From contig NZ_KB889669.1 of NCBI RefSeq assembly GCF_000372745.1, forward strand, positions 62,001 to 126,000: DNA of 64,000 nucleotides, written 5' to 3'. A model generated the notes under the pieces. That model ran no database searches and had not been told where the DNA came from. It saw nothing but the letters and a program-made list of their open reading frames with translations. The position numbers were made by a program, and so were the translations under genes. The stretch comes from Embleya scabrispora DSM 41855 (GTDB lineage: Bacteria > Actinomycetota > Actinomycetes > Streptomycetales > Streptomycetaceae). Shown here one piece after another: positions 10,583 through 21,907 of this stretch (position 1 is the stretch's first letter; the number at the start of each line of letters is the position of its first letter).

Positions 10583-12119
<1,537 letters not shown>

Positions 12120-14406: not shown

Positions 14407-15555
14407 TCAGCGCCCCCGCGCGCCGCCCGTCCTCGCGGCGCGCGGTTCGGCCGCGGCGGGCAGTCGGGCCGGCACCTTCGCGCCCGCGGCGGTGGACCGA
14501 CCGGGGTCGGCGGCCGGACTGCCCGCCCCCGAGTCGTTGTTGGCCGAACCGGGGCTGCGATCCGGCAGCGACTTCGCCCCCTCGGGGGTGACCCGGGTCG
14601 CGCCGATGTAGTCCGGCTTGTCGATCGGGCCGAACTTGATCACCGTGCCGGTGTACGGCGCGTGGATCATCTGGCCGTTGCCGACGTACATCCCCACGTG
14701 GTGGATGCTGCGCGGGTCGCGCAGGTCGGTGGCGAAGAACACCAGGTCACCCGGCAGCAGTTGGTCGCGCGAGGGATGCCGGCCGGCGTTCCACTGGTCG
14801 TTGGCCACCCGGGGCAACTTGATGCCCACGGTGTCGTAGGCGGCCTGGGTCAGCCCCGAACAGTCGAACCGACCGCCGTCGGCCGCGGTGCCCTCACCGC
14901 CCCACAGGTATTCGGTACCGAGCTTGGTCTGCGCCCAGTTGACCGCCCCCGCCGCGAGCGCCATCGGCTGCAGCGGGGTCTGCACCACGCCGAAGCTCTG
15001 CTCCAGCGAGCGGATCGACTTCACGTAATCCTGGGTCTGCGTGTACGGCGGAATGCCCTTGTACTGCATCACCCGGTACGCGCCCGCGTTGTACGCGGCG
15101 AGCATGTTGTTGGTCCGGTCGCCGGGCACCGAGGCGACATATTTGGCCAACGAGCAGTCGTAGCGCGCCGCGGCCGGGATCGCGTCGGCGGGATCCCACG
15201 GACTCGCCTTGCCGTCCCCGTTGCCGTCGGTGGCCCACTCGGGCCACGTGGTGGGCATGAACTGGGCGATGCCCTGGGCCCCGACGTTGCTCACCGCGTT
15301 CGGGTCGAATCCACTCTCCTGGTAGAGCTGCGCGGCCAACAGCGCCGGCGAGATCTCCGGGCAGAGCCGACCCCACTTGTCTATCGCAGCCGCGTACGCG
15401 GCCGGCACGGTGCCGGGCGCGAGTGCCATCGTGCCGCCGAGGCCGGTCTGGCTGCCGGACGCGGACTGCATCGCGCCGACGCCTACAGTGAGCAGACCCA
15501 CCAGACCGAAGGGGATCGCGAATGCGATGCCACCGGCCACCCAGGCTTTGCGCAT
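14407..15555 (-). CDS. SLT-NlpC/P60 bifunctional wall hydrolase (VirB1-like)
   Basis: 382 residues. N-terminal membrane helix (AFAIPFGLVGLLTVGVGAM), then a lytic transglycosylase domain (about 60-200) with catalytic Glu in LYQESGF, and GIAQFMPTTW, AAYNAG motifs. Then an NlpC/P60 domain (about 215-330) with Cys in FDCSGL and His in IHHVGMYVG. A Ser/Pro/Ala-rich tail ends the protein. ATG 15555 is chosen because the signal-like helix starts there. SLT-NlpC/P60 fusions are characteristic of Gram-positive type IV secretion loci (VirB1, TcpG, CwlT), where they open the wall for the channel. It is divergent from, and 226 bases away from, the secretion-like operon that starts at 15781. Confidence 0.9.
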   Translation of the reverse strand: MRKAWVAGGIAFAIPFGLVGLLTVGVGAMQSASGSQTGLGGTMALAPGTVPAAYAAAIDKWGRLCPEISPALLAAQLYQESGFDPNAVSNVGAQGIAQFMPTTWPEWATDGNGDGKASPWDPADAIPAAARYDCSLAKYVASVPGDRTNNMLAAYNAGAYRVMQYKGIPPYTQTQDYVKSIRSLEQSFGVVQTPLQPMALAAGAVNWAQTKLGTEYLWGGEGTAADGGRFDCSGLTQAAYDTVGIKLPRVANDQWNAGRHPSRDQLLPGDLVFFATDLRDPRSIHHVGMYVGNGQMIHAPYTGTVIKFGPIDKPDYIGATRVTPEGAKSLPDRSPGSANNDSGAGSPAADPGRSTAAGAKVPARLPAAAEPRAARTGGARGR

Positions 15556-15780
15556 CGCAGGCACCCCCGTTTCTCCGCGACCGGGACGGGTCGCGACGGA
15601 CACTCCGAGCACATTGTGCGCGCCACGATTGCTCAGCGCAATCACCCGTGATACACACAGTGAGCAGACACACTTGCCGAGGTGGTAGCCCGATCGGCTT
15701 CCCCACAGCACAATAAACGAACGACCCACTCCTCCTGTCGAATGTGACCGGAGGCAACCAAAAGCCCGACCTCGGGGGCG
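15556..15780. promoter_or_regulatory. Divergent regulatory region between the SLT-NlpC/P60 gene and the secretion-like operon
   Basis: 225 bases hold both promoters. GATTGC (15628-15633) pairs with GCAATC (15639-15644), and GTGATACACACAGTGAG near 15648 carries several TGTG/CACA steps that could be protein-binding sites. No clean -35/-10 pair is seen. Confidence 0.35.
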
Positions 15781-16110
15781 GTGAACAACGTGTTTCTTGG
15801 CGAAGGCAACGGCAACGGCAACGGCGACATCAATACGATCATCGGCGGCATAGCTCCGAACTGGGGCCCGTTCGCAAGGCTGGGCGGCGAAGCCCGGATC
15901 ATGGTCGAGGTGATCATGGCCGTGGCCCTGCTGCTCTGCCTGGCCATTGCGATCTGGGGTGCGGCGAAGCAGCGCATAGGCGCCACCGCGATGCGCGACA
16001 CGTTCAGCGCGGAGCAGGGCAAGGGCCTCATCATCGCCGGCCTGACCGGCGTCTTCATCATCGGATCGCTCGGGACGCTGTTCACGATTGTGTACGGAAT
16101 GGCGATCTAG
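15781..16110 (+). CDS. Small two-helix membrane protein, VirB2-like
   Basis: 109 residues: a Gly/Asn-rich N-terminus, one long helix (VEVIMAVALLLCLAIAIW), a short polar loop, and a second helix (IIAGLTGVFIIGSLGTLF). Size, two-helix layout and place at the head of a VirB6/VirB4-containing operon are those of type IV secretion pilin-like (VirB2/TrbC-like) subunits, though no cleavable leader is seen. GTG 15781 is used; GTG 15790 is possible, and the GGGGGCG just upstream is close for a ribosome site. No enzyme motif. Function is inferred from context. Confidence 0.7.
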   Translation: MNNVFLGEGNGNGNGDINTIIGGIAPNWGPFARLGGEARIMVEVIMAVALLLCLAIAIWGAAKQRIGATAMRDTFSAEQGKGLIIAGLTGVFIIGSLGTLFTIVYGMAI

Positions 16111-16425
16111 ACCGATTCGCACCCTGCCGTCCCCAAGGTGGCGAATCCCGTGGTGTTTTGTCCCGGGCGCGGCGCACTTCGGTGCGCCGTGCGCCCCGAA
16201 AGCGGAATGCCCCATTCCGCATGCGAGGCAAAGCAGCAATTCCGGCACCTTTACCGGACAATCGAGCCTGTGTTCACACAACAGCGCCGTGCCACCGGAA
16301 TGACTTCCCGTCTGGGAAGATCGTTCCGGCTGCAACCGAACCCGGCGGCGCTCCGCCCCCGGGAACAGTGTTGTGCGCGCAGGTCGTCCGTATCTTCCGG
16401 CCTGCCGCGGTAAGGGGGACAGGCC
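16111..16425 (+). other. Intra-operon spacer with a TTCG hairpin
   Basis: 315 bases without a gene. An 8-bp stem with TTCG loop lies at 16170-16189; it may terminate part of the transcripts or protect the 3' end of the small-protein mRNA so that more of that subunit is made. The stretch just before the next gene ends with GTAAGGGGGACA, a good ribosome site. Confidence 0.5.
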
Positions 16426-17232
16426 ATGAGCGACGAGGAACCCGCCACGCGTACCCGCCTGCCCAGACCCACCTCCTCACCGGAGAGTCCGGAGCCCAGG
16501 CGCAACCCCATACTGTCCGGGATCGGCGTCGTCGTGGTGATCGCCGTGGTCATCGTGTCCCTGTTGTTCGCCGCGAACCGCTCCGACGACGGCGGCTCGC
16601 CTGCCAAGGACGCCGGACAGACCTCCGCGGCCGGCACCGGAACACCCGGTGGACCGCCGCTGTCCGCCGCGCAGTTGCCCGAACGCACCGAGTCGGGCGT
16701 GCCGGTGGGCTACCCGCAGACCGCCGAGGGCGCCCAGTCGGCCGCGGCCAACTTCGTCGTCGCGTACGGCTCGGACCGGATGTTCCAGGCCCAGCCGCGG
16801 GCCGCGATCATCACCGCGATCACCGACCCGGCGATCCGCGACGGTCTGCTCGCGCGCGTCGACCAGGCGTTCCGCGCGCAGACCACGACATTCGGCCTAC
16901 AGCCCGACGGGAACCCGCCCAAGGGGCAGACCTTCGTTTGTCGGGCCGTGCCGATGGGCACCAAATCTGTTGCCTTCACGCCTACTTCGGCAACCGTGGA
17001 GGTCTGGAGCGTGGGCGTGGTGGGCCTCGCCGGGACCGGCTCCACCAAGCCGGTTGCCGAGGCGTGGAACACCACCACGATGAAACTGTCGTGGGTGGCC
17101 GGCGACTGGAAGCTGGTCGAGTTCAGCCAGAAGGAGGGCCCGACTCCGATCTCCGGGCTGCAGGATCCGTCCAGCGCCAACGACATCGCCAAGGCCGACG
17201 GAGAGTTCGGGGAATTGCGCCATGCACGCTGA
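16426..17232 (+). CDS. Single-helix membrane protein, VirB8/TcpC-like
   Basis: 268 residues: a Pro/Arg-rich cytoplasmic start, one helix (residues about 30-46, SGIGVVVVIAVVIVSLLF), a Gly/Ser/Ala spacer, and an extracellular domain of about 180 residues. This bitopic plan with an NTF2-sized outer domain is that of VirB8/TcpC assembly factors. The motif GYPQTAEGAQSAAANFV begins the outer domain. Only two possible metal or disulfide residues are seen, so it is not obviously an enzyme. ATG 16426 follows GGGGGAC. The 3' end overlaps the next gene by 11 bases. The VirB8 assignment is structural inference, not motif identity. Confidence 0.72.
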   Translation: MSDEEPATRTRLPRPTSSPESPEPRRNPILSGIGVVVVIAVVIVSLLFAANRSDDGGSPAKDAGQTSAAGTGTPGGPPLSAAQLPERTESGVPVGYPQTAEGAQSAAANFVVAYGSDRMFQAQPRAAIITAITDPAIRDGLLARVDQAFRAQTTTFGLQPDGNPPKGQTFVCRAVPMGTKSVAFTPTSATVEVWSVGVVGLAGTGSTKPVAEAWNTTTMKLSWVAGDWKLVEFSQKEGPTPISGLQDPSSANDIAKADGEFGELRHAR

Positions 17233-18535
17233 CCGGGAACGCCGCAGCCTTCGCAACCGATTCCTGACCCTCGGCGGGGCACTGACCGCGGTTCAGGCCG
17301 TCGTCGTGCTCGGTGCCACACGCGTATGGGCCGAGCCCACACCCGGTGCCACGACACCGCCCGCCACCACGCCCAGCGCGACCGCACCCGCGAACAAGCC
17401 GGAGTGCGAACTGCTCACCGGCCCGGCGAAGGACATCTGCAACAACGGCGGCCCCGGCGCCCCGGGCACCGGCACACTGGGCACCGTCACCGACCCGCTC
17501 GGCTCGATCGCCAAGGGTTGTGCCGACGCGGCGACCTGGATCATCGACAAGCTGGCCGGCGCGGTCAACGACACCACCCAGGTGGACTTCACCAACCCCG
17601 GCTTCCTGCGCCAGTACGCGGTGGTGTTCGCCGCGTCCACGTTCCTGACCCTGATCCTGTGGATATTGGCCGTCACCAAACGCGCCGTGCGCGGGGTCCC
17701 GATCGGCACCGCGATCAGCGAGGCGATCGGCTACCTGTGGCTCGCGGTGATCGCGTCCGCGTTCACCCCGCTGATCCTGTATTTGGCCGTCTCGATGACC
17801 GACGCGATCACCGCGGCCATCGCGACCGGCACCCAGCAGGACACCAACAAGTTCCTCGGCGGCTTCTCCAAGGCGCTCGATCCCGCCGGCGACCTCGGCG
17901 GCGGGCCGGTGATGCTCATCTTCGTGTCGCTGCTCTCGATGGCCGCCGCGGCCGTGCTGTGGGTCGAACTCCTGGTCCGCGCGGCGATGTTGTACGTCGG
18001 CGCGATCCTGGGCACGGCGGTGTACTCGGGCCTGGTGGACAAGGCGATGTGGCACCACGTCCGGCGCTGGGCCGGGCTCATGATCGCGGTGCTGCTCGCC
18101 AAGCCGGTGATCGTGATCGTGCTCGGGCTGGCCACGGCGGTCACCTCCGGCGGCAAGAACGACGCGTTCTCCTCGGTGCTCTCCGGGCTGGCGATCCTGT
18201 TCCTGTCCATCTTCGCCAGCGTGCTCATCTACCGATTCGTGCCCAGCATCGGCGACGACATGGCCGCGCTGCACAGCAGTCGCAAGGCGATGCAGTCGGC
18301 CGGTCCGGCCTCGATGGTCAACGGTCCGGCCACGTATATGAAGCAGGGCATCCAGGCACACGCCTCGCGGGGATCGACCGGTTCCGGCTCTGCCCCGGTG
18401 ACCGCGAACGCCGTATCGTCGGGCATTGCGGCCCATGGCACCAGGGGCGGAGGTTCGGGCGGCGCCCCGACGCCGGCACCATCGCCTCCGGCCAATCCCG
18501 CGGCAACGCCTCACGCGAGGAACGGTAAAGAGTAA
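17222..18535 (+). CDS. Polytopic membrane protein, VirB6/TrbL-like
   Basis: 437 residues. A signal-like first helix is followed by a Pro/Thr-rich spacer with CELLTGPAKDICNN, an amphipathic stretch, then about six helices (for example LTLILWILAV, LWLAVIASAFTPLILYLAV, VMLIFVSLLSMAAAAVLWV, LAILFLSIFASVLIY) and a Gly/Pro/Ala-rich cytoplasmic tail. This resembles VirB6/TrbL channel proteins: the WVELLVRAAMLYVGAI segment is a typical TrbL-like core. The gene overlaps its upstream neighbour by 11 bases and its stop overlaps the next start (TAATG), so the operon is tightly coupled. Confidence 0.78.
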   Translation: MHADRERRSLRNRFLTLGGALTAVQAVVVLGATRVWAEPTPGATTPPATTPSATAPANKPECELLTGPAKDICNNGGPGAPGTGTLGTVTDPLGSIAKGCADAATWIIDKLAGAVNDTTQVDFTNPGFLRQYAVVFAASTFLTLILWILAVTKRAVRGVPIGTAISEAIGYLWLAVIASAFTPLILYLAVSMTDAITAAIATGTQQDTNKFLGGFSKALDPAGDLGGGPVMLIFVSLLSMAAAAVLWVELLVRAAMLYVGAILGTAVYSGLVDKAMWHHVRRWAGLMIAVLLAKPVIVIVLGLATAVTSGGKNDAFSSVLSGLAILFLSIFASVLIYRFVPSIGDDMAALHSSRKAMQSAGPASMVNGPATYMKQGIQAHASRGSTGSGSAPVTANAVSSGIAAHGTRGGGSGGAPTPAPSPPANPAATPHARNGKE

Positions 18536-20046
18536 TGACTACGCAACCGGTCGCCCGACGCCGAACCTTCCTGATCGGCAAGGCCAAACCCACGGCGGTC
18601 ATCGGCAAGAACCGCGAGCCCGGCGAGATCTTCCTGATCATCGCGGCCGGCGGACTCGCCCTGCTGTGGGGCCTGTTGATGCCGATCCTGGTGATCCGCA
18701 TCGCCGGCCTGGTCGGCTTCCCGCTGCTCGCGTTCGCCGCCGTGTACCTGCCGTACAAAAAGCGCACGTTCTACAAGTGGTGGGAGATCAACCGCACCTA
18801 CAAGCGCACCATCAAGCGCGGCGCCACGTACCGATCGGCGGTCACCGAGGCGGGCACCAAACTGACCGGGCAGGGTGTCGCGGTCGGCGCGCCGCCCGGG
18901 GTCGGTCGGGTGGCCTGGTCGAGCGTGCCGTTCGGCCCGGACGAGCTGACCGTGCTGCTGCACCTGGAACGGCGCACGGTCACCGCCGCGATCGAGATCG
19001 AGGGCCCGGGCGTGGGGCTGCGCGACTCGGAGGACCAGGAGGCGCTGGTCGAGCGGTTCGGCACGCTGCTCAAGCACGTGGCCAACGGCGACGGCTTCGT
19101 CACCCGGCTCCAGGTGCTGGCCCGGACGCTGCCCGCCGATCCGGACGCACACGCCAAGGACGTGGCCCGGCGCGGCAACCACAAGGCGCCGATGTGGGTC
19201 CAGGACTCGTACGAGCAGCTCCAGTCGATGGTGTCCACCTCGTCGGAGCAGCACCGCGCCTATCTGATCGCGTGCATGCACTACACCCGTGAACTGGCCG
19301 CCGAGGCCATTGTGATGGGCAAGGGCGACAAGGGCATCGGCGTGGTGATGGCGCGTGAACTCACCGACGTATGCGCCCGGTTGACCGAGGCGGACATCCG
19401 GGTCCGGCAGCCGCTGAACGAGGCGCGGCTGGCCTCGCTGATCCACTCGATGTACGACCCCGAGCATCAGATCGACGCGTTCGAGGGCATGCAGGCGCGC
19501 TACGCGTGGCCCGCCGAGTTGGACGCGACGCACCCCAACTACCTGGAGGCCAAGACCCGCGAGTCGGACTCGGCCGAGCCGTGGTGCCACGCCACCGCGT
19601 GGATCAAGGAGTGGCCGCTGACCCCGGTCGGCGTCAACTTCCTGGCCCCGCTCCTGGTGCACACCCCGGACGTGATCCGCACCGTCGCGGTGACGATGGA
19701 CCTGGAGCCCACCGACATCGCGATCGAGCGCATGCTCACCGAGAAGACCAACGACGACGCGGACGCGGCCCGCGCGGCCAAGATGAACCGCGTGGTCGAC
19801 CCGCGCGACATGGCCCACACCGGCCGGGTCGACCAGCGCGGCGAGGACCTGGCGGGCGGCGCGGCGGGGGTGAACATCGTCGGCTACATCACGGTCTCCT
19901 CGCGCAATCCCGACCAACTCTCCCGGGACAAGCGCACCATCCGCGCCTCGGCGGGCAAGTGTTTCCTCAAGCTGGAGTGGTGCGACCGCGAGCAACACCG
20001 CGCGTTCGTCAACACGCTGCCGTTCGCGACGGGTATTCGAAAGTGA
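18535..20046 (+). CDS. SCO6880-type protein: PrgI/VirB3-like membrane part plus VirB4 N-domain-like part
   Basis: 503 residues. Two closely spaced helices near the N-terminus (about 31-70, IFLIIAAGGLALLWG and LPILVIRIAGLVGFPLL) are followed by YLPYKKRTFYKWWEIN, the layout of VirB3/PrgI proteins. The remaining 420 residues are cytoplasmic, have no P-loop, and resemble in size and place the N-terminal domain that normally precedes the ATPase in VirB4 (for example LTVLLHLERRTVTAAIEIEG). I recognise it as the conserved actinobacterial family named for S. coelicolor SCO6880. Its role is probably to link the membrane channel to the ATPase encoded next. Confidence 0.75.
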   Translation: MTTQPVARRRTFLIGKAKPTAVIGKNREPGEIFLIIAAGGLALLWGLLMPILVIRIAGLVGFPLLAFAAVYLPYKKRTFYKWWEINRTYKRTIKRGATYRSAVTEAGTKLTGQGVAVGAPPGVGRVAWSSVPFGPDELTVLLHLERRTVTAAIEIEGPGVGLRDSEDQEALVERFGTLLKHVANGDGFVTRLQVLARTLPADPDAHAKDVARRGNHKAPMWVQDSYEQLQSMVSTSSEQHRAYLIACMHYTRELAAEAIVMGKGDKGIGVVMARELTDVCARLTEADIRVRQPLNEARLASLIHSMYDPEHQIDAFEGMQARYAWPAELDATHPNYLEAKTRESDSAEPWCHATAWIKEWPLTPVGVNFLAPLLVHTPDVIRTVAVTMDLEPTDIAIERMLTEKTNDDADAARAAKMNRVVDPRDMAHTGRVDQRGEDLAGGAAGVNIVGYITVSSRNPDQLSRDKRTIRASAGKCFLKLEWCDREQHRAFVNTLPFATGIRK

Positions 20047-20092
20047 GCGTCGGCGGTGTCACCGCCGCGGACGGGACGGATGAGGTGATCAC

Positions 20093-21448
20093 GTGTCGGG
20101 TCTGATGTCCACGTTGACCCAGGGCTTCTCCGGCATCATCTTCGGCCGGGGCGAGACCCAGCGGCTGCCGGTGCGCACATCCACCGGACAGGCCCAGGCG
20201 ATCTATCTGCCCACGGCCGCGCCCGGGCTCGGCGACTCGGGCGTGATCATCGGCCGCGAGGTGTACTCCGGCAAGGGCTACATCTACGACCCCTTCCAGC
20301 TGTACGGCCAGCAACTGCCCGCGCCGCACTGGCTGGTCCTGGGCGAGTCCGGGAACGGCAAGTCGGCGCTGGAGAAGACCTACGTACTGCGCCAATTGCG
20401 CTTTCGCGACCGCCAGGTGGTGGTTCTGGACGCGCAGGGCGAGGACGGCGTCGGCGAGTGGAACCTGATCGCCGAGGCGCTGGGCGTCAAGCCGGTCCGG
20501 CTGGACCCCAACGACCTCTCCGGCGACGCGGTGCGACTCAACCCGCTGGACCCGGCGATCGCGGTCACCGGCCAACTGGCGCTGCTGCGCACCATCATCG
20601 AGGTGGCGATGGGCCACTCGCTCCAGGAGCGGGCCGGCTACGCGCTCAAGGCCGCGCACACGCACGTGATGCGCACCGTGCACGGCAGGCAGCCGATCCT
20701 CCCGGACATCGTCGAGGCGCTGCGCAATCCGACCCCCGAGTCGTGTGAACTGCTCAGTCTGGATGTCAAGGACGTCCGGGTCTGGGGCTTGGACGTCGCA
20801 CTGGTCCTGGACCGGCTCACCGACGGTGACCTCCAGGGCATGTTCGAGGGGCCGACCACGGACGGCATCGACCTGGACTCGCCGCTGATCATCTTCGACC
20901 TGTCGCATATCGACCGGAACTCGATCGCGATGCCGATCCTGATGGCGATCGTCGGCGTGTGGCTGGAGCACACCTGGATCAGGCCGGACCGGGTCAAGCG
21001 GATCTTCCTGGTCGAAGAGGCGTGGCACATCATCAACAGCCCGTTCGTGGCCCAGTTGTTCCAGCGCCTGCTCAAGTTCGGCCGGCGTCTGGGTCTGTCC
21101 TTCGTCGCGGTGGTCCACCACCTCTCCGACGTGGTGGACGGCGCGGCGGCCAAGGAGGCGTCGGCGATCCTGAAGATGGCCTCGACCAGAACCGTGTACA
21201 TGCAGAAGGCGGACGAGGCACGCGCGACCGGAAAGGTGCTCGGTCTGCCCCGGTGGGCGGTGGAGATCATCCCGACCCTGACCCCGGGCATCGCGGTCTG
21301 GGACGTCAACGGCAACGTGCAGGTGGTCAAGCACCTGATCACCGACACCGAGCGGCCGATGGTCTACACCGACCGCGCGATGACCGAGGACGCGGTGGAG
21401 GAACGAGTGCGTGCCGAGGCGGCGTTGGCCGACGATCCGGCGGCATAG
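20093..21448 (+). CDS. VirB4/TraE-like secretion ATPase
   Basis: 451 residues, soluble. Walker A is GESGNGKS (about residues 84-91), Walker B is IFLVEEAWH (about 304-312), and the FGRRLGLSFVAVVHHLSD stretch with following arginines matches the VirB4/TrwB RecA-fold core. The long N-terminal domain of normal VirB4 is missing; the preceding gene seems to provide it. It would power assembly or transport at the inner membrane. GTG 20093 follows GAGGTGATC. The stop TAG is directly followed by the next ATG. Confidence 0.88.
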   Translation: MSGLMSTLTQGFSGIIFGRGETQRLPVRTSTGQAQAIYLPTAAPGLGDSGVIIGREVYSGKGYIYDPFQLYGQQLPAPHWLVLGESGNGKSALEKTYVLRQLRFRDRQVVVLDAQGEDGVGEWNLIAEALGVKPVRLDPNDLSGDAVRLNPLDPAIAVTGQLALLRTIIEVAMGHSLQERAGYALKAAHTHVMRTVHGRQPILPDIVEALRNPTPESCELLSLDVKDVRVWGLDVALVLDRLTDGDLQGMFEGPTTDGIDLDSPLIIFDLSHIDRNSIAMPILMAIVGVWLEHTWIRPDRVKRIFLVEEAWHIINSPFVAQLFQRLLKFGRRLGLSFVAVVHHLSDVVDGAAAKEASAILKMASTRTVYMQKADEARATGKVLGLPRWAVEIIPTLTPGIAVWDVNGNVQVVKHLITDTERPMVYTDRAMTEDAVEERVRAEAALADDPAA

Positions 21449-21907
21449 ATGGGGTCCTACGGACGCCCGCCGCAGCCGCGCGAGCCCACGCCGGGCCGGG
21501 CGCCCTCGGAGGGCGTCCCGGACGGCCTGCTGATCGCGGGCCTGGTGCTGCTGATAGCGGGCACGGCGGTGATCTGGCTCGCCACCGGGCTGGCCGCGCT
21601 GGCGAGCGGCAAGGACTGGCCCGACGAGGTCACCTACCACCACTCGGCCCTGGCGATGCGCTCGATGCTGGGCGACCCCGACGATCTGCCGCACGCGTGG
21701 CCGGACACCCCGCCGGGACAGTTGCCCTCCCCCACCGCGTTCTGGGTGTCGTTCGGTTTCGTGGTGATGATCCTGCTGGTCGCGGTGGGATGGGTGTTCT
21801 GGTGGTGGTTGCGCCGGGCCGCGGCGAAGGCCGCGCGGGCGGCCGGCGCCGAATCACCCGATTCACCTGCCCCGAAGCGGAATCAGCGGCTCCCGGACGG
21901 GGAATGA
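21449..21907 (+). CDS. Two-helix membrane protein, probably the N-terminal membrane domain of a VirD4-like coupling protein
   Basis: 152 residues: short Pro-rich start, helix 1 (PDGLLIAGLVLLIAGTAVIWLA, about 26-45), an outer loop containing WPDEVTYHHS and PDDLPHAWPDTPPGQLPS, helix 2 (FVVMILLVAVGWVFWWWL, about 104-122), and a basic tail. The layout is that of the membrane anchor of VirD4/TraG coupling proteins, and the outer-loop wording resembles the start of the coupling protein I know from Streptomyces versions of this cluster. Here the frame stops after the second helix; no Walker motif or ATPase domain follows in any frame downstream. Either a truncated gene or a separate anchor subunit. 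Confidence 0.7.
   Translation: MGSYGRPPQPREPTPGRAPSEGVPDGLLIAGLVLLIAGTAVIWLATGLAALASGKDWPDEVTYHHSALAMRSMLGDPDDLPHAWPDTPPGQLPSPTAFWVSFGFVVMILLVAVGWVFWWWLRRAAAKAARAAGAESPDSPAPKRNQRLPDGE

Follow-up and report, generated by a model that had tools for sequence, protein, structure and literature searches.

The window analysed here, 64,000 nucleotides of contig NZ_KB889669.1 from Embleya scabrispora DSM 41855, carries at 14407–21907 a cluster of seven genes which is, as judged from sequence, the Embleya orthologue of the chromosomal cmdFEDCBA operon (SCO4131–4126) of Streptomyces coelicolor together with tgdA (SCO4132). We consider it probable (about 0.7) that these genes encode a domesticated, coupling-protein-independent envelope machine of the type IV secretion system (T4SS) kind that serves development, in which the VirB4-type motor has been retained and the motor for DNA coupling is decayed or missing. 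Sequence-level support comes from the T4SS gene set, a conserved ATPase, a decayed coupling protein and the failure to find a relaxase of the MOBF type. An earlier note, made from the letters of the window, had put the cluster forward as its best candidate for an undescribed system, a designation that does not stand, since cmdA–F and tgdA have been under genetic study since 2009 and both the VirB4 similarity and a type IV-like channel have been published. The operon, its role in sporulation and its VirB4 similarity were thus already known; what is new is its recognition as a tamed conjugation machine with a decayed coupling motor, with cmdA as the decayed gene of VirD4 type.

The cmd/tgdA cluster and its proteins

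A divergent wall hydrolase gene is followed by six co-directed genes in the order F-E-D-C-B-A. All seven open reading frames (ORFs) are free of internal stops, with a GC content at third codon positions (GC3) of 0.87–0.94 and more GC at first than at second positions, as expected. Open frames, codon bias and ordered orthologues bear out the earlier note's six collinear genes plus hydrolase. Its description of the genes as overlapping or abutting was correct for cmdE/cmdD (11 bp overlap), cmdD/cmdC (1 bp overlap) and cmdB/cmdA (abutting), but not for cmdF/cmdE and cmdC/cmdB, which are separated by 315 bp and 46 bp.

Orthology to the S. coelicolor genes rests on gene order, the K90 residue, primer-encoded peptides and universal single copy. 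Two peptides encoded by the published S. coelicolor cmdB mutagenic primers, ESGNG(x)SALE and VQVV(x)HLIT, are present in the window CmdB, and the lysine mutated as K90 in S. coelicolor has the same number in the window protein, where it falls within Walker A. Both clusters share the gene order, the divergent transglycosylase and the VirB4-like ATPase with its K90 lysine. They differ in CmdA, a 152-amino-acid stub in Embleya but full length, and predicted to be catalytically dead, in the Streptomyces examined. Within the genus (the host genome is of 11.4 Mb) the window CmdB shares 98% identity with its counterpart in Embleya hyalina.

Curated Pfam or NCBIfam families were matched by the hydrolase, the VirB4-like ATPase and the SCO6880 protein, and the other four proteins have none of their own. 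CmdB (20093–21448, + strand) is a VirB4-like ATPase with Walker A GESGNGKS, identical in 93/93 orthologues, and Walker B FLVEEAW. It scored above the Pfam cut-off for both AAA_10 (44.9 bits) and P-loop_TraG (33.1 bits), and matched the VirB4 C-terminal domain 4ag5 in the Protein Data Bank (3e-5). CmdC (18535–20046, +), with two transmembrane (TM) helices and an alpha/beta domain, belongs to the SCO6880 family (NF042935, 186 bits; cut-off 60). Its structural model was poor (predicted local distance difference test, pLDDT, of 44, mostly below 50), the input alignment being too uniform, with most rows 73–79% identical; the top Foldseek matches included R388 T4SS/TrwK (VirB4) chains at non-significant E values of 0.09–0.6, a hint only. 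CmdC is probably a VirB3 fused to a module of the VirB4 N-terminal type, which would leave CmdB as a bare VirB4 motor.

TgdA (14407–15555, − strand) is a membrane-anchored or secreted, VirB1-like protein that combines an SLT lytic transglycosylase (64 bits) with an NlpC/P60 endopeptidase (NLPC_P60, 91 bits), both over the Pfam cut-off. The SLT motif QESG[FW] could be read in 54 of 64 homologues and the NlpC motif FDCSGL in 59 of them; a start at the ATG at 15555, giving 382 amino acids, is more likely than the far-upstream TTG. In CmdE (16426–17232, +), one TM helix precedes a domain (residues 90–240) modelled by AlphaFold mostly at pLDDT above 90, with a confident NTF2-like fold. Its Foldseek neighbours included the IcmL-like lpg0120, the PrgL VirB8 domain and CagV VirB8, and also ARC6 and CaMKII hubs; as the latter show the fold to be unspecific, the VirB8-like identity rests on fold and context.

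The remaining labels come from position, topology and weak matches. CmdF (15781–16110, +; 109 amino acids, two TM helices) occupies the VirB2/pilin position and matched no Pfam family, so that its VirB2 label reflects position and topology. It is unusually conserved for a pilin, with 77–95% identity across aligned orthologues and 36–38% to the small gene at the equivalent position of plasmid T4SS loci. CmdD (17222–18535, +), a polytopic VirB6/TrbL-like membrane protein, is syntenic with those loci; of 26 orthologues, 6 matched TrbL_4 weakly, the best of them at E 2e-4. Four assignments of the earlier note, namely the VirB4-like ATPase with clear Walker motifs, the VirB8-like protein, the VirB1-type SLT-NlpC/P60 hydrolase and the SCO6880-type protein, are supported by these results.

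Decay of the coupling protein CmdA

In most Streptomycetaceae, cmdB is followed by a CmdA of about 490–680 amino acids, which has two TM helices and, at its C-terminus, a domain homologous to coupling ATPases from mobile loci (hhalign 100%, E 1.2e-51, 317 columns). Walker A was missing in 55 of 56 full-length CmdA proteins, a set which includes one wrong-frame artefact, the 607-amino-acid ORF after cmdB in locus L060. The catalytic glutamate of Walker B was replaced in all 48 readable sequences (37 LDD, 7 with the order ED, 2 LDN and 2 LDH). The DE pair was kept in all four control type IV coupling proteins (T4CPs; L118, L119, L176 and L177, annotated or domain-checked), the mis-extracted ORFs T_L125, L127, L131, L133, L137 and L147 having been left out. 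L159, the sole CmdA whose Walker A is intact, nevertheless reads LDD at Walker B, and the deep-branching L150 retains the lysine and also reads LDD; glutamate loss therefore seems to precede that of Walker A.

Decay has gone further elsewhere. In Embleya and Yinghuangia, CmdA is the two-TM anchor alone (134–154 amino acids). The window stub (21449–21907, +) corresponds to the anchor at the N-terminus of a coupling protein of VirD4 type: it aligned just to the N-terminal ~90–110 residues of full-length CmdA (E about 1e-20) and matched the N-terminus of a T4CP from its own genome (5e-5), and no trace of the ATPase remainder was present downstream of it in the window. What had been described as a coupling-protein-like membrane protein is thus only the membrane stub of one. 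The gene is absent in Kitasatospora and in another family (f3) of the same order, and the distribution of stub and absence requires three changes on the tree, i.e. three separate losses. A T4CP domain match was absent genome-wide in 32 of 61 Kitasatospora genomes. On these alignments CmdA is a coupling protein of VirD4 type that has decayed; all the lineages covered have it in a catalytically dead form, reduced to the anchor, or not at all.

Published genetics offers a framework for this pattern. Deletion mutants of cmd/tgdA genes in S. coelicolor are defective in aerial growth, in sporulation and in the segregation of chromosomes (PMC2782261, PMC6585502), and the requirement of the cluster for aerial growth and sporulation has been demonstrated in three Streptomyces species, S. 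coelicolor, S. lividans and S. avermitilis (PMC2782261). The S. coelicolor cmd genes are co-transcribed, cmdB transcription rises with aerial growth, and null mutants sporulate poorly except for that of cmdA, which has no visible phenotype (PMC2782261). Mutants of cmdB and of the whole cluster show abnormal branching, uneven DNA and 6–8% anucleate spores, versus 0.1% in the wild type, and a CmdB K90 variant fails to complement, so the Walker A lysine is needed for normal development (PMC2782261). In a Tn5 screen, mutants of tgdA, cmdBCDEF and SCO5677 all overproduced actinorhodin (PMC6585502). An invariant Walker A in CmdB next to a decayed CmdA is the pattern that such genetics would predict, in which cmdB–cmdF matter and cmdA is dispensable; the decay or loss of the coupling motor in turn explains that dispensability.

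Distribution, mobility and relatives

Each of the 76 genomes of the same order that were searched carried one close CmdC copy, at 68–97% identity. Among other orders of the class a close CmdC occurred in 1 of 24 genomes, in an assembly with 6% contamination. That assembly holds the sole cmd cluster seen in another order (L156, G082:C878:1-8000), with CmdB and CmdC 68–75% identical, which may reflect either horizontal transfer or the contamination. Across 80 named genomes, orthologues of each gene, with the gene order kept, were present in about 50–80 of the 80, tgdA being sometimes relocated or beyond the fetched stretch. Among the 261 plasmid records having a CmdB relative, identity stayed below 60% throughout.

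We also searched for the parts of a transfer system. When MOBF relaxases (the only relaxase type queried) and T4CPs of the host's own genome were compared with the window by tblastn, no match was obtained; the host's MOBF relaxase genes sit on another contig. The six flanking genes scanned are of housekeeping type (GalE-like epimerase, EamA, acyl-CoA dehydrogenase, APH, Usp and TetR), and the flanks that are conserved in Embleya and Yinghuangia are not shared by other genera, so synteny outside the cluster is uninformative. The possibility of a mobile element was rejected on distribution. The earlier note's proposal of a chromosomal T4SS-type machine kept by the host, with no relaxase in view, accordingly agrees with the 76/76 occurrence, the plasmid search, the flanks and the MOBF search, and the comparison of gene order it suggested showed the same order kept among the 80 genomes.

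The closest plasmid loci have, in the same order, a wall hydrolase, a small membrane protein, VirB8-like and VirB6-like proteins, SCO6880, VirB4 and a protein annotated as TraM-recognition (VirD4-type). The T4SS loci of the large Streptomyces plasmids NZ_CP109145, NZ_CP108308 and pMDJK44.2 share this layout with cmd, with VirB4 identities of 40–48%. These loci differ from cmd in being plasmid-borne, with an intact coupling protein and, in one of the nearest relatives, a MOBF relaxase, whereas cmd is chromosomal and host-wide. In the ATPase tree the cmd ATPases branched together, apart from the plasmid types, though support was modest (80/68). The transfer genes of SLP2 were likened to cmd in the 2009 paper (PMC2782261), from which we take that likeness. 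The SCO6871–6884 cluster of S. coelicolor holds paralogues of cmdB, cmdC and cmdD but differs from cmd in that knocking out SCO6878 or SCO6881 leaves sporulation unaffected (PMC2782261).

Two further clusters were observed in the same genome. One (L118, G000:C125:78000-94000) is a second T4SS-type cluster with TrbL-like, SCO6880-like and VirB4-like proteins, an intact T4CP, DUF4913, SLT-NlpC/P60 and a VirB8-like lipoprotein; a relaxase was not seen in it, none having been specifically searched for. Relatives of its T4CP (55–66% identity) number about seven in genome G020, an amplified family. The other (L119, G000:C134:30000-49000) is a cmd paralogue of mobile type, with an intact T4CP, a VirB4-like protein, an SLT/NlpC/M23 fusion and a transposase-like gene downstream; no relaxase has been located for it. 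In the window itself, positions 10731–12119 near tgdA encode a resuscitation-promoting-factor (Rpf)-like transglycosylase fused to LysM and an M23 peptidase, which is found beside cmd only in Embleya and Yinghuangia.

Candidate functions of the Cmd machine

We propose that the chromosome acquired a conjugative T4SS of Streptomyces-plasmid type at an early point in the history of the order, and that this system was converted into a developmental envelope machine. TgdA would cut and open the peptidoglycan for a complex in which CmdC, CmdD, CmdE and CmdF span the envelope, and ATP hydrolysis by CmdB would power its assembly or action. At aerial hyphae and septa such a machine could export or install an envelope component, or serve as a conduit, in aerial growth and septation, and the segregation defect would then be a secondary consequence of bad septation. 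We infer that the machine pumps no DNA, and favour envelope remodelling or a conduit, as the missing relaxase (MOBF queried) and the dead or absent coupling protein make regulated DNA export unlikely. A more specific version, to which we attach little confidence, is a VirB4-only powered conduit or assembly machine, derived from a T4SS, between the compartments of sporulating hyphae; it would be an actinobacterial counterpart of the Bacillus SpoIIIA-SpoIIQ channel and the first known VirD4-independent T4SS in a monoderm.

The resemblance to VirB4 was pointed out in the 2009 study, whose authors put forward a type IV-like DNA channel (PMC2782261). That the machine handles DNA, for instance in chromosome segregation, is in keeping with the anucleate spores and uneven DNA of the mutants and with the place of VirB4 in the same P-loop superfamily as FtsK and the T4CPs. 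This is nevertheless unlikely: the VirD4 coupling ATPase, the DNA-moving part of T4SSs, is dead or gone, which argues against a DNA channel, no relaxase was found (MOBF queried), and the branching and aerial growth defects precede septation. Moreover, the cmdA null is without visible phenotype, and transfer of an SLP2-derived plasmid is unaffected by cmd deletion (PMC2782261). At the far end of the scale, a decaying remnant of an integrative and conjugative element with little function would account for the loss of relaxase and coupling ATPase, which plasmid relatives carry (the relaxase in one case). It is extremely improbable, and we count it as already refuted by the universal presence in the order, the CmdC conservation, the invariant Walker A and the phenotypes in three Streptomyces.

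A coupling ATPase might instead be supplied from elsewhere, SCO5677 being the attractive candidate, so that a one-step, substrate-translocating T4SS would be retained. The gene, which we take to adjoin gabT (an adjacency used to locate orthologues), shares the Tn5 overproduction phenotype with tgdA and cmdBCDEF; its product is a predicted membrane protein with a P-loop GxxGxGKT in two Streptomyces, and an orthologue exists in this Embleya. Apparent orthologues are found at L179:8088-10253 (+), L180:9547-11616 (+) and L181:1492-3888 (−), beside gabT in two Streptomyces; they are membrane P-loop proteins with no Pfam or NCBIfam match above cut-off, and Walker A is intact in both Streptomyces. 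Profile comparison, however, gave probabilities of 4% against T4CPs and 0.3% against CmdA, neither Pfam nor NCBIfam detected a T4CP domain, and the Embleya copy lacks the Walker A lysine (GAARAGEP). A trans-acting coupling role for SCO5677 is thus unsupported by profile comparison, and supply from elsewhere appears quite unlikely, somewhat more so than DNA handling.

Several points weigh against a domesticated, coupling-protein-independent machine. Chromosome segregation is disturbed in the mutants, which leaves room for a role in DNA, and the coupling function could come from SCO5677, an ATPase-like membrane protein whose mutants share the phenotype. The dead CmdA domain of Streptomyces retains conserved columns and so may still act, and VirB2, VirB3 and VirB6 are assigned by position, topology and weak matches.

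A T4SS without VirD4 has precedents in Bordetella pertussis Ptl, Brucella VirB, Helicobacter pylori ComB and Bartonella Trw, which like cmd are VirB4-driven machines lacking a coupling protein; their substrates arrive by another route, or the machine is a surface structure (PMC12857230). These are systems of diderm bacteria, whereas cmd belongs to monoderm hyphal actinobacteria and is developmental. In a 2025 review of T4SSs the VirD4-less examples are all Gram-negative, and sporulation is absent from the text (PMC12857230). The domesticated machine favoured here would give a molecular identity to a sporulation operon that has been unexplained since 2009, that of a conjugation machine tamed by its host and stripped of its DNA-coupling motor, and would make cmd a universal, single-copy model of a T4SS core working without relaxase or coupling protein in a Gram-positive envelope.

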